Source of the DNA: Deltaproteobacteria bacterium RBG_13_61_14
Lineage (GTDB): Bacteria > RBG-13-61-14
Assembly (NCBI GenBank): GCA_001797815.1
Contig: MGQK01000083.1
Location: 7,060 to 26,276, forward strand
Length of the DNA stretch: 19,217 nt
Direction of reading: 5' to 3'
A model generated the notes under the pieces. It was not told where the DNA came from, did no database searches, and was given only the letters and a program-made list of their open reading frames with translations. Numbering within the stretch: the stretch's first letter is position 1; each line of letters starts with the position of its first letter. Made by a program: the position numbers and the translations under genes. Below, in pieces: positions 659-18,356 of the stretch.

Positions 659-1900
659 TCAGCGCAAGAATCCCTCCAGGGCCTGAAAGGACTTGGCCAG
701 CGCCGCCAACACTTCCTCCACCTCTTCCGCAGTCACGATCAGCGGCGGCATGATGATCATGACCGAGGGATCATTGTGCGCGAACATGGCGATCACCCCG
801 TTCTGGGCCAATTGACTGGTGAGCAATATGCCCAACCGGTCTTCGCACATCTTCAGGCCGATCATGAGGCCCTTTTGCCGGACCTCGATCAGCAGCCGCG
901 GGTGATTCAACTGCAGCCGGATCAGGCCCTTGGCGAAGATTTCCGCCATGGTATTGACGTGGCCCAAAAGCTCGGGCGAGCTGAGCCGGTCCAGGACGGC
1001 GAGGGTGACCGCGCAGCCCAGCTCCGAGCCTCCGTAGGTGGAGACGTGGACAAAGGGGTGCTGGTCAAAAAAAGATTGCAGGCGCGGCCGGTAGCAGGTG
1101 GCGGACATGGGGTAAAGCGCGCCGGAAAGGCCCTTGCCCAGGACCAGGATATCCGGCGCCACCTGGTATTCATCAATGGCCCAGAACCTTCCGGTCCGGC
1201 CCAGGCCGGCCTGGACCTCGTCAATGATCAGGACCGCACCTTGGGCGTCGCAGATTTTCCGGACCGCTGGAAAGTAATCGTCGGGCGGGATGACGATGCC
1301 CAGGGTGGCCGGGATGGTCTCGAAAATCACGGCCGCGGTCTCTTCGGTGACCGCTTCTTCCAGCGCCTCGAGGTCGCCGAACGGGACCTGGCTGAAGCCG
1401 GGCGCGAGCGGGCCGAAATATTCCTTGAAGGAGTCCTCGCCGGTGGCCAGGGCAAAGCCGGTGTGGCCGTGATAGCCGCCGATGGCGGAGATGATCCCGG
1501 GCCGGCGGGTGTAGCCCCGGGCCAGCTTGATGGCCAGGTCCACCGCCTCGCCGCCGCCGACGCCGAAGGTGGTGTATTGGATGTCGCCGGGAGTTAGCTC
1601 GGCCAGGCGTTTGGCCAGGCGGGCGCGCCATTCGCTGAGCAGGAGGTGGTCGCCGAGGTCCAGAGTTTCCAGGGCCCGGGTGAGCGCGGCCAGGATTTCC
1701 GGCGGCCGGTGTCCGAGATTGAAGACGCCGCCGGAGGACCGGCAGTTGATATAGGATTTTCCGTCCTTGTCCCAGAGGCGCGAGCCCTCGCGGCGGGCGG
1801 GGACGATCTCCATGCCCAGCATTTGATAGGTTTTCAGCTTGCCGGGGGAGACGAACTCTTCAAAGGCTTTGAGGGCTTGGGCTTTGGTCCATGTTTCCAT
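659..1900 (-). CDS. Class III PLP-dependent aminotransferase
   Basis: A 413-residue fold-type I, class III aminotransferase of the acetylornithine/putrescine/GABA aminotransferase superfamily, presumably cytosolic, moving an amino group from an omega- or alpha-amine to a keto acid. The phosphate-binding segment GVGGGEAV is at about residues 113-120, the PLP-ring aspartate is in LIIDEVQAGLGRTG (D227), and the Schiff-base lysine is K256 in LVLGKGLSGALYP. STYGGSELGCAV matches the second-subunit contact typical of the class. The ATG at 1900 (METWTK) was chosen over an upstream ATG at 1930 because the latter lies inside the 1921-1948 palindrome; a weak AGGCGG precedes 1900. It stands alone between repeats with no pathway neighbours, so the substrate cannot be assigned. 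Confidence 0.88.
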   Translation of the reverse strand: METWTKAQALKAFEEFVSPGKLKTYQMLGMEIVPARREGSRLWDKDGKSYINCRSSGGVFNLGHRPPEILAALTRALETLDLGDHLLLSEWRARLAKRLAELTPGDIQYTTFGVGGGEAVDLAIKLARGYTRRPGIISAIGGYHGHTGFALATGEDSFKEYFGPLAPGFSQVPFGDLEALEEAVTEETAAVIFETIPATLGIVIPPDDYFPAVRKICDAQGAVLIIDEVQAGLGRTGRFWAIDEYQVAPDILVLGKGLSGALYPMSATCYRPRLQSFFDQHPFVHVSTYGGSELGCAVTLAVLDRLSSPELLGHVNTMAEIFAKGLIRLQLNHPRLLIEVRQKGLMIGLKMCEDRLGILLTSQLAQNGVIAMFAHNDPSVMIIMPPLIVTAEEVEEVLAALAKSFQALEGFLR

Positions 1901-3368: not shown

Positions 3369-3427
3369 CCACCTGCGGCCCGGCAAGGGCCAAAGAAGGT
3401 TGCCAGCACCCAAAGGGCCTCAGGTGG
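3369..3427. repeat. Long-range inverted repeat overlapping the trxA stop codon
   Basis: CCACCTGCGGCCC (3369-3381) and GGGCCTCAGGTGG (3415-3427) pair with one mismatch in 13. The outer arm includes the trxA TGA. On the trxA transcript this would fold the stop codon and 3' region into a stem with a 33-base loop. No U-tract follows, so it looks more like an RNA-stability or processing hairpin than an intrinsic terminator. Confidence 0.45.
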
Positions 3428-3752
3428 AAATCACTTGATTGATAAATTTAACCAACTCGGCCTTGGGCTGAGCGCCCACGGTCTGTGAGGCCACCTTGCC
3501 CCCTTTGAACAGGATCAAGGTCGGGATGCTCCGCACCCCGTATTGGGCCGCGGTGTTGATGTTATCATCCACGTTGAGCTTGCCCACCTTGATCTTTCCG
3601 GCATATTCCTTGGCCAGCTCTTCCACCATCGGCCCCACCATCCGGCAGGGTCCGCACCAGGGCGCCCAGAAATCCACCAGCGCGGGCAGTTCCGACTTCA
3701 GAACCTCCGCCTCAAAGTTCTGGTCGTTCAATTCATTGACCCATTCCGACAT
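3420..3752 (-). CDS. trxA: Thioredoxin
   Basis: A 110-residue cytosolic thioredoxin that reduces protein disulfides, normally recharged by thioredoxin reductase. The active site WAPWCGPC is complete (C33 and C36), the buried aspartate is in LVDFWAPW (D27), the cis-proline is in [12 protein letters not shown], and the length matches the family. The start is ATG at 3752 (MSEWVNEL), preceded by AAAGGAG at proper spacing; a longer reading beginning at 3830 would add 26 residues with no family counterpart and would cover the likely promoter. It lies head-to-head with the glycosyltransferase gene. Tpx enzymes draw electrons from thioredoxin, so this may be the reductant of the Tpx encoded about 2.5 kb away, but that link is inferred. 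Confidence 0.95.
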
Positions 3753-3798
3753 GCTTGACTCCTTTCCAAGACTAAGGGACGAGTTTGCCGTTTGAGAA

Positions 3799-3804
3799 AT
3801 TATA
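3799..3804 (-). promoter_or_regulatory. Candidate -10 element (TATAAT) upstream of trxA
   Basis: A perfect TATAAT on the minus strand lies 46 bases upstream of the trxA ATG. The region 17 bases further upstream is an A-tract without a recognisable -35 hexamer, so this is a -10-only call in the divergent trxA/glycosyltransferase gap. Confidence 0.4.
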
Positions 3805-3859
3805 GTAGCATAGAAGAATTTTTTTTCCATCCCTCCCGGAAAAATGGTTTAATAGGGTT

Positions 3860-6256: not shown

Positions 6257-6772
6257 CTAAAGCAGCTTGCGCACGGTCCCGAGCACCGCGTTGTAGTCGG
6301 GTTCTTTGCCGATTTCGGGAACTACCTGGACGTATTGGACCACGTGTTTCTTGTCCAACACGAATACTACCCGCGCGAGTAGCCGCGACTCTTTCATCAG
6401 CACGCCGTAGGCGAGGCCGAAGGCGGCCTCCTTGTAGTCGGAGAGGGTCTGCACCCGGCTGACCCCGGCCGAGGCGCACCAGCGTTTCTGGGCAAAGGGC
6501 AGGTCCATGCTCACGGTGACGATGGCCACCTCCGGGCCGAGCTTGTCCGCTTCCAGGTTGAAATGGCGGGTCTCCAGGTCGCAGATCGAGGTGTCGAGCG
6601 AGGGGACCGAAGAGAGCACCAGCACCTTGCCCCGAAAGGATGACAGCTTGACCGGCTGGAGGTTGGGGGCGATCAACTCCAGGTCCGGGGCCAGGTCTCC
6701 GACTTTCACTTCATTGCCGACCAGGGTCACCGGCTTGCCGGCCATGGTCACCAGGCCTTTGCGTTCTTTCAT
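6257..6772 (-). CDS. tpx: Thiol peroxidase (atypical 2-Cys peroxiredoxin), intact
   Basis: A 171-residue Tpx that reduces H2O2 or alkyl hydroperoxides with electrons from thioredoxin. The peroxidatic motif SVPSLDTSICDLETRHFN has the catalytic T61 and C64, and the resolving cysteine C99 is in KRWCASAGV. MDLPFAQKRW and LSDYKEAAFGLAYGV are family signatures, and the length is normal. The ATG at 6772 follows GGGAG closely, with AAAGGA further upstream. It lies 320 bases downstream of a paralogue without redox cysteines; the two share 44 of their first 60 residues, so they are a tandem duplication. A promoter candidate at 6966-6994 and a 23-codon ORF precede it. Confidence 0.93.
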   Translation of the reverse strand: MKERKGLVTMAGKPVTLVGNEVKVGDLAPDLELIAPNLQPVKLSSFRGKVLVLSSVPSLDTSICDLETRHFNLEADKLGPEVAIVTVSMDLPFAQKRWCASAGVSRVQTLSDYKEAAFGLAYGVLMKESRLLARVVFVLDKKHVVQYVQVVPEIGKEPDYNAVLGTVRKLL

Positions 6773-6814: not shown

Positions 6815-6886
6815 TCAGGACTCGTTCGTCATATTCGATTTCCAAGCGCAGCTGAGGATCTCTTCGGTCGTGATAAGCTTAGCCAT
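6815..6886 (-). CDS. 23-codon leader-like ORF upstream of tpx
   Basis: The ORF reads MAKLITTEEILSCAWKSN plus five residues. ATG at 6886 follows AAAGGGAGGGG, a strong if close ribosome site, and the TGA lies 42 bases before the tpx ATG. It sits between the 6966-6994 promoter and tpx, so it would be on the same transcript. I do not recognise the peptide. It may be a leader peptide, a small protein, or the surviving start of a truncated gene. Confidence 0.35.
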   Translation of the reverse strand: MAKLITTEEILSCAWKSNMTNES

Positions 6887-6965: not shown

Positions 6966-6994
6966 AAGGTAATGAGTGGATCAGGTTTTGTCAA
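6966..6994 (-). promoter_or_regulatory. Candidate sigma-70 promoter for the leader ORF and tpx
   Basis: On the minus strand TTGACA (6989-6994), 17 bases, then TACCTT (6966-6971). It is about 80 bases upstream of the 23-codon ORF and about 190 upstream of tpx. It indicates that tpx can be transcribed separately from its upstream paralogue. The rest of the 320-base gap holds the leader ORF and the hairpin at 7049-7090. Confidence 0.5.
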
Positions 6995-7092: not shown

Positions 7093-7620
7093 TCACGCTC
7101 TGGCGGAATTCCGCCGCTGCAGATCACTCCAGCTCCAATGAGGGCTGGAAACTTTCCGGTTATCCGGCACCAGTTGCCGGTAGCGAATGATCCCTTCCTC
7201 GTCCACCACGAACATCGCCCGCGATAACAGCCGAAACTCCTTGATCAACACGCCATAGGCCAGGCCGAAAGCGGCTTTGAGGTAGTCGGAGAGGGTATGA
7301 ACCCGATCCACCTGGGCCATATCCCGCCATCTCTTTTGCGCAAAGGGCAGATCCATGCTCACGGTCAGGATCGTCACTTTGGGATCCAGGGCCTGGGCCT
7401 CCAGGTTGAAATGACGGACTTCCTCATCATACTCCGGATGTTCGAGCGACGGCACGGAGGAAATCACGCAAAGTTTGCCCCGGAAGGCCGAAAGCTTGAC
7501 CGGCTCTAAGTCCGGGGTAATGAGCTCCACATCCGGGGCCGGCTCTCCTACATTGACTTCATTGCCGATCAGAGTCACTGGCCGACCGGCCAGGGTCACG
7601 ATCCCTTTGCGCTCTTTCAT
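7093..7620 (-). CDS. Tpx-family paralogue lacking both redox cysteines
   Basis: A 175-residue peroxiredoxin-fold protein clearly homologous to the neighbouring Tpx (MKERKG.VT.AG.PVTL start, SVPSLE, MDLPFAQKRW, LSDYLKAAFGLAYGVL). Where Tpx has DTSIC this protein has EHPEY: catalytic T61 is histidine and peroxidatic C64 is tyrosine. The resolving C99 is arginine (KRWRDM). Its only cysteine is C51, not a known catalytic position. The reading frame is open over the full length, with conservative differences elsewhere and a divergent C-terminus (SSPHWSWSDLQRRNSARA). Peroxidase activity by the normal mechanism is therefore not expected. ATG at 7620 follows AAAGGAA, and the upstream region has a good promoter. 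It could have a regulatory or binding role, or be early in decay. Confidence 0.85.
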   Translation of the reverse strand: MKERKGIVTLAGRPVTLIGNEVNVGEPAPDVELITPDLEPVKLSAFRGKLCVISSVPSLEHPEYDEEVRHFNLEAQALDPKVTILTVSMDLPFAQKRWRDMAQVDRVHTLSDYLKAAFGLAYGVLIKEFRLLSRAMFVVDEEGIIRYRQLVPDNRKVSSPHWSWSDLQRRNSARA

Positions 7621-7778: not shown

Positions 7779-7807
7779 AAGATAATAGCAGAAGCGATTT
7801 TTGTCAA
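7779..7807 (-). promoter_or_regulatory. Sigma-70 promoter for the cysteine-less Tpx gene
   Basis: On the minus strand TTGACA (7802-7807), 17 bases, then TATCTT (7779-7784). The implied transcription start is about 150 bases before the ATG at 7620, leaving a long leader that contains the GC-rich stretch around 7690-7730. Confidence 0.6.
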
Positions 7808-7813
7808 GGTTAA

Positions 7814-7831
7814 TTGTGAATTATATTACAA
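7814..7831. promoter_or_regulatory. CRP/FNR-type operator candidate
   Basis: TTGTGA-N6-TTACAA is an 18-bp near-palindrome, one base off full symmetry per pair, lying seven bases upstream of the TTGACA of the Tpx-paralogue promoter in an AT-rich island. Spacing and half-sites resemble those recognised by CRP/FNR-superfamily regulators (TGTGA-N6-TCACA). Its centre is about 50 bases before the implied start site, so activation or repression cannot be decided. Confidence 0.4.
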
Positions 7832-17708: not shown

Positions 17709-18039
17709 TTATTCCCTTCCTTCCAAAAACTGCTTGGCCGCAGCGAAAAATTCCTGAGCATGCCGCAACTGTTCTTCTGCATCATTTTTGCTGAAGTCAA
17801 ATGGAATTGTATATGGGAAATCTTCCCGTGGCCACGAAATTTCTTCCCAGTGCGGAAATGACCGCCTGATGACTGGAAAAACTCTTGCCTTCGCTCATCA
17901 AGATGGCCTCGGCTAAATAAAACATCGAAAAATAACCCCGGGAAACAGCCAGCATATAATGACCTAGATTAATGTTATCTCTTATCGCCACGAGCTCTTT
18001 TTCCGCCCTCTTGATAAGCTCCTGAATGCTCGAGGTCAT
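17709..18039 (-). pseudogene. HEPN-domain (toxin-like) gene, frameshifted
   Basis: From ATG at 18039 the frame reads MTSSIQELIKRAEKEL, then AVSRGYFSMFYLAEAILMSE and SSHQAVISALGRNFVATGRFP, the classic core of HEPN proteins (helical toxin partners of MNT nucleotidyltransferases), before stopping at 17797 after 80 residues. The adjacent +1 frame continues with DFSKNDAEEQLRHAQEFFAA to a TAA at 17709, which looks like the normal HEPN C-terminal helix. Relative to the usual 120-130 residues, about 15-20 residues after the TGRFP motif are missing. A deletion plus frameshift explains both. No Rx4-6H ribonuclease motif is visible in what remains. The ATG overlaps the mntA-like TGA as ATGA, and the TAA lies 2 bases before hisC. 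Confidence 0.65.
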
Positions 18040-18356
18040 ATTGCGATCCCCTCCCGGTGGAGGTTCATCGTGATCGGCCACTGATTTTCTTCATAAAGTT
18101 GCTCTTCGAGAAAAATCAGGGAGACCAATAGATCATGCTCCAGGCTGAGATCAGTAACCAGTTCTCCGGTCCGATTGATTTCCTGGCAGGCATCGAGTTT
18201 CCCTTCCAGGATCACCGCCACGTCAAGATCCGACTCCGGATCCGCCTCGCCCCGCGCCTGCGACCCGAACAGGATCAGCTCCTTGAGCCGCTCCCCGTAA
18301 ATTTTTTCCAGCTCGCCGCGAAGCTCAGCCAATACCGTCTTGACTTTCTCATCCAT
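18036..18356 (-). CDS. MNT-domain nucleotidyltransferase (antitoxin-like)
   Basis: A 106-residue minimal nucleotidyltransferase, the usual partner of HEPN toxins; characterised MntA antitoxins inactivate HepT by adding AMP. The catalytic GSx10DxD signature is complete: FGSQARGEADPESDLDVAVI with G31, S32, D43 and D45, and a likely third carboxylate in LEHDLLVSLIFLEE. ATG at 18356 begins 2 bases after the pheA stop codon and its TGA overlaps the HEPN start by 4 bp. The catalytic residues and frame are intact although the adjoining HEPN gene is broken. The pair interrupts an aromatic amino acid operon and is more AT-rich than its neighbours, so I infer horizontal insertion. Confidence 0.88.
   Translation of the reverse strand: MDEKVKTVLAELRGELEKIYGERLKELILFGSQARGEADPESDLDVAVILEGKLDACQEINRTGELVTDLSLEHDLLVSLIFLEEQLYEENQWPITMNLHREGIAI

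Follow-up and report, generated by a model that had tools for sequence, protein, structure and literature searches.

The window analysed here, the whole stretch of 19,217 nucleotides, carries a tandem pair of genes for thiol peroxidase (Tpx)-like proteins, designated A and B (Table 1). The draft genome (4.7 Mb in 132 contigs) has no further Tpx genes. Pfam assigns both products to Redoxin/AhpC-TSA, and both score above the curated cut-off (123 bits) of the NCBIfam thiol peroxidase equivalog NF001808, with 186.8 bits for A and 136.1 bits for B. A first-pass annotation of this DNA had described B as a complete frame with 44 of its first 60 residues identical to the neighbouring Tpx; both points were confirmed, and over the first 156 residues the identity is 66% (103/156).

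Table 1. Features of the Tpx gene pair and its upstream regions (positions within the window)
Feature	Position	Strand	Remarks
A, intact Tpx	6257..6772	-	171 aa, with T61, C64, C99 and R134; sister of B
Weaker similar promoter-like site of A	6966..6994	-	TTGACA-17-TACCTT; from sequence; between A and B
B, cysteine-less Tpx paralogue	7093..7620	-	175 aa; complete frame, ATG to TGA, no stops
C-terminal segment of B, codons 153-175	7096..7164	-	Without the conserved EPDY motif
Former C_R region of B, codons 97-105	7306..7332	-	R99-D-M-A-Q
beta4-alpha2 loop of B, codons 86-97	7330..7365	-	TVSMDLPFAQKR; lines the partner's peroxide cleft in Tpx dimers (PMC3288085)
Former C_P loop and first turns of helix 1 of B, codons 58-70	7411..7449	-	S-L-E60-H61-P-E63-Y64-D-E-E-V68
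Sigma-70-like promoter of B	7779..7807	-	TTGACA-17-TATCTT; consensus match only
Palindrome, Rex/CRP-family-like	7814..7831	.	TTGTGAATTATATTACAA; just upstream of the -35 box of B

The TTGACA promoter that had been proposed for B is present, with a spacing of 17 nt to TATCTT, and this promoter-like site starts approximately 160-190 nt before the ATG. Two such sites were found in that 2 kb where 0.6 would be expected by chance. The palindrome TTGTGAATTATATTACAA has two mismatches to the Rex consensus and one to that of CRP, and 0.33 Rex-like matches are expected in the window. Together, the promoter-like sites and the palindrome hint weakly that B might be expressed and redox-regulated. The leader of A contains a 23-codon ORF (6815-6886, reverse strand) with a good ribosome-binding site (MAKLITTEEILSCAWKSNMTNES); a convincing homologue was not seen in the regions preceding tpx in relatives. 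A thioredoxin gene (3420-3830, reverse strand) lying some 2.4 kb away from A and B encodes a possible electron donor for A. In a relative (SURF_34; locus L026, 2699-5510), Tpx is part of an anaerobe oxygen-defence operon with the order rubrerythrin, rubrerythrin, Tpx, rubrerythrin-like protein and desulfoferrodoxin, and in the present genome the tandem Tpx pair is found in place of a cluster of this type. Elsewhere in the window, adjoining ORFs for a HEPN-domain protein and a nucleotidyltransferase (17797-18350, reverse strand) resemble an MNT/HEPN toxin-antitoxin pair and lie beside pheA within a cluster of aromatic amino acid genes.

Alignment of B with A gives the substitutions previously noted, namely T61 to H, C64 to Y and C99 to R. 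At the codon level these are ACC to CAT, TGC to TAT and TGC to CGG, and as each involves changes of 2-3 bases, the three residues can hardly stem from faulty sequencing; a simple error at two separate codons, the way out left by the first-pass annotation, is thereby ruled out. B does not possess the PxxxTxxC motif with its peroxidatic Cys, reading P57xxxH61xxY64, and the resolving Cys at position 99 (C95 in E. coli-type numbering) is missing with R99 in its stead. The loss goes beyond three residues, with D60, I63, T68, A100-S101 and G103 also changed. Past approximately residue 153 the protein is unrecognisable as Tpx, a region with conserved E153, P158, Y160 and L164 in the family. A simple frameshift as the cause of this C-terminal divergence was rejected, there being a Tpx score in none of the three frames. 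Of the active-site residues, Arg134 and Pro57 are retained. The first-pass annotation also considered a protein making use of C51; this idea is weakened, as Cys occupies column 51 in 33 of 143 ordinary Tpx relatives and C51 thus needs no special role.

B is therefore like Tpx, an atypical 2-Cys peroxiredoxin, over residues 1-152, including the N-terminal hairpin region, P57, R134 and the SMDLPFAQKR loop, but differs from it in lacking the peroxidatic Cys, the resolving Cys, the active-site Thr and the EPDY C-terminal segment. Without these two cysteines and the Thr, it should be incapable of cysteine-based peroxide reduction. A homologue of an enzyme family that is devoid of the essential catalytic residues is a pseudoenzyme, and B is of this description. 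As judged from its sequence, ancestry and profile score place it in Tpx whereas the defining catalytic residues do not, its general kind being that of a pseudoenzyme paralogue.

The defining feature of peroxiredoxins is a cysteine that is essentially invariant. Tpx sequences were sampled among relatives of this genome and in several other phyla, one of them a large phylum to which most of the closest homologues belong. In three sets of these, 153 of 154, 35 of 35 and 29 of 29 sequences had both Thr61 and Cys64 (a few loci being counted twice). B is the sole exception, both residues being kept in all of the approximately 215 other Tpx inspected. Loss of the resolving Cys by itself is less rare, since Ala or Ser takes its place in most Tpx of one other phylum (that of G007, loci L170-L198); the peroxidatic Cys is kept in this group, whose members look like 1-Cys enzymes or users of another resolving Cys. 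In-frame stop codons were also encountered. The Tpx gene of L073 (G435) is apparently broken by an in-frame TAA. In a peroxiredoxin homologue of L019 (G023; approximately 1477-1899, reverse strand), the codon at the very position of the peroxidatic Cys is an in-frame TGA (FTFV*PTE), an arrangement known from selenocysteine peroxiredoxins; L020 and L023 likewise have one in-frame TGA each.

A cysteine-less form in related genomes, which the first-pass annotation had proposed to look for, was absent everywhere searched, and no orthologue of B was found in any other genome searched, nor were there relatives in the viral contigs. The phylum to which B belongs is represented by three of the genomes searched, the other two being without Tpx, and B is so far known from a single genome.

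In a maximum-likelihood tree of 145 sequences, A and B are sisters (support 98/94), which, within the limits of the sampling, makes B the product of a duplication in its own lineage. Codon identity at shared amino acids is 55.6%, with 46% expected at full saturation, and the Nei-Gojobori (NG86) estimates for the core are a dS of about 1.0 and a dN of 0.25. Silent sites are thus near-saturated and the duplication is old. The core of the two genes differs at approximately 138 scattered positions, mostly third positions of codons. Recent gene conversion was considered for the likeness of A and B and rejected, since third-position differences are even along the gene. From these sequence comparisons the pair is an old, lineage-specific tandem duplication.

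A codon-model branch test of the two copies was discarded because of saturated silent sites and branch lengths at their bounds, and was replaced by relative-rate counts, NG86 and a neutral simulation. Outside the two cysteine loops (residues 58-70 and 97-105), differences unique to A against those unique to B number 15:12, 9:11, 12:10, 11:8 and 8:9 with five outgroups. Within the loops the corresponding counts are 2:6, 2:8, 2:6, 0:7 and 2:8. By counts, B evolves no faster than A outside the loops, with a mild excess in B being possible; the maximum-likelihood branch for this part measures 0.17 in A and 0.25 in B. The dN between A and B is 0.60 in the loops (bootstrap 0.32-1.04) and 0.21 elsewhere (0.14-0.27), with the opposite order for A against the outgroup L034 (0.18 in the loops, 0.28 elsewhere). 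The dN/dS against the intact paralogue, put forward earlier as a check, lies far under 1, at 0.25 for the core and 0.21 outside the loops.

Conservation was also scored at 56 core columns where A carries the residue shared by 85% or more of the family. B departs from the family at 6 of 12 such columns in the loops and at 0 of 44 elsewhere. When neutral drift was simulated from A, none of the 1000 runs at any divergence gave six or more changes in the loops together with none elsewhere, and once drift reached 0.03 substitutions per site, no more than about 5% of runs left the outside columns untouched, these probabilities being somewhat flattering as the loop boundaries were set around the two cysteines after the data had been seen. 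The simple reading of these sequences is that the fold stayed constrained during or after the dismantling of the catalytic centre, and the thioredoxin-type fold of B would be under approximately the same purifying selection as that of A. The frame of B shows none of the stops, frameshifts or conservation-blind scatter of a pseudogene, the loss at its C-terminus being noted. The suggestion of a dead enzyme kept for another job gains support, with constraint outside the active site equal to that of the active copy. B is thus likely to be a selectively maintained pseudoenzyme, a pseudoperoxidase, the indication of maintenance being a comparison of A with B within one genome so far.

The crystal structure of Yersinia Tpx is that of a homodimer in which the peroxide cleft is built by both subunits (PMC3288085). 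One subunit provides the C_P, alpha3-beta6 and beta7-alpha5 loops, and the other contributes the beta1-beta2 (L35') and beta4-alpha2 (F89') loops, with a D57-R93' salt bridge being possible across the interface (PMC3288085). Of the conserved columns forming its own cleft, B keeps 6 of 12 in the C_P segment (57-70), 1 of 4 in the C_R region and 0 of 4 in the beta7-alpha5 loop. It keeps 7 of 8 in the alpha3-beta6 loop and all eight in the partner-facing beta4-alpha2 loop. This last loop, TVSMDLPFAQKR (SMDLPFAQKR, including F93 and R97), is the same in B as in A at the protein level, with several silent changes in the DNA. The change of D60 to E preserves an acid able to form a salt bridge with R97 of a partner (numbering mapped from D57-R93, PMC3288085). 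At the position equivalent to R110, a reported contact of the interface, A has K and B has L, which is a point against dimerisation of B. Structure predictions of B from one or three sequences are of low confidence (pLDDT 36 and 47).

As B has lost most parts of its own site and has kept the loop that serves a partner, a dimer with A is proposed. The regulatory partner of the intact Tpx, one of the roles suggested in the first-pass annotation, is accordingly the reading preferred here. B would still dimerise, most likely with the co-encoded A, and in such a heterodimer the site of A alone would be active, to be completed or tuned by B. Judged on these retained and lost segments, heterodimer formation is quite conceivable, if short of probable. 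Somewhat more tentatively, B may act as a bacterial peroxiredoxin prozyme, lending its SMDLPFAQ loop to the cleft of A and so setting activity or peroxide specificity. Overall, the best explanation, and on balance a probable one, is that B is a pseudoperoxidase that arose by an old tandem duplication, with a constrained fold, and that may dimerise with A.

Retention of the loop also fits homodimers of B, since the loop acting in trans serves the general fold too. B could accordingly be a maintained non-catalytic protein that operates without A, either as a homodimeric holdase or chaperone or by binding thioredoxin or lipid peroxides, with which the constraint data (relative rates and conserved columns) agree equally well. 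A chaperone role independent of peroxidase activity is documented for the Leishmania mitochondrial peroxiredoxin mTXNPx (PMC3203189). However, the known peroxiredoxin chaperones are decameric typical 2-Cys enzymes and Tpx is a dimer, and an identical partner-facing cleft loop is left unexplained by such a role alone. We consider independence from A to be a less likely, if respectable, alternative.

It is unlikely from the sequence that B is in early decay, having been a working Tpx until recently and then having lost its active site and C-terminus. This would account for the disappearance of a C-terminal segment conserved in the family, the lack of an orthologue in the other genomes searched, the longer end branch of B on all columns (0.81, with 0.36 for A) and its lower codon adaptation (0.62 vs 0.73 for A), a value lying within the range of neighbouring genes. 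Neutral hits should nevertheless scatter, and those in B are confined to the loops among the conserved core columns; moreover, the loop codons are mostly changed by 2-3 bases and the frame is free of stops. The recent duplicate in decay that the first-pass annotation had also offered sits poorly with a duplication that is old and with changes limited to catalytic segments and the C-terminal tail.

New chemistry at the remodelled site, in the form of metal or ligand binding by E60, H61, E63, Y64, D65, E66, E67 and H70 together with R134, is improbable. The dense cluster of acidic, His and Tyr residues at the N-terminus of helix 1 did come about through codons with multiple hits, and Sco proteins, which are Trx-fold relatives, bind metal near the equivalent position. 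Yet H70 is common to A and B, and a precedent in the family was not found. That B is a sequencing or assembly artefact of a draft genome has a negligible chance, given the approximately 138 scattered, mostly third-position differences from A and the multi-base codon changes.

For the preferred reading, a pseudoperoxidase acting with A, the nearest functional precedent comes by analogy from trypanosomatids, in which dead paralogues of AdoMetDC and of deoxyhypusine synthase, the prozymes, activate a living partner (PMC5201418, PMC3663545). The prozymes share with the present pair a catalytically dead paralogue beside an active one, with hetero-oligomerisation proposed (PMC5201418, PMC3663545), but they are eukaryotic and of another fold and chemistry, and the partnership of B is proposed from sequence. 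Leishmania mTXNPx likewise has a peroxiredoxin role with no need for peroxidase activity (PMC3203189); it differs in being an active peroxidase with its cysteines kept and in forming a typical 2-Cys decamer, Tpx being a dimer. A literature search reaching few subscription journals yielded neither a cysteine-less Tpx nor a peroxiredoxin pseudoenzyme or prozyme, and peroxiredoxins are unmentioned in a pseudoenzyme review. If a cysteine-less Tpx is indeed maintained, a large family of redox enzymes would join those with regulatory dead paralogues. B would then also be a natural test of the role of the Tpx dimer beyond catalysis, since its own pocket is gone and its contribution to the pocket of a partner is intact.
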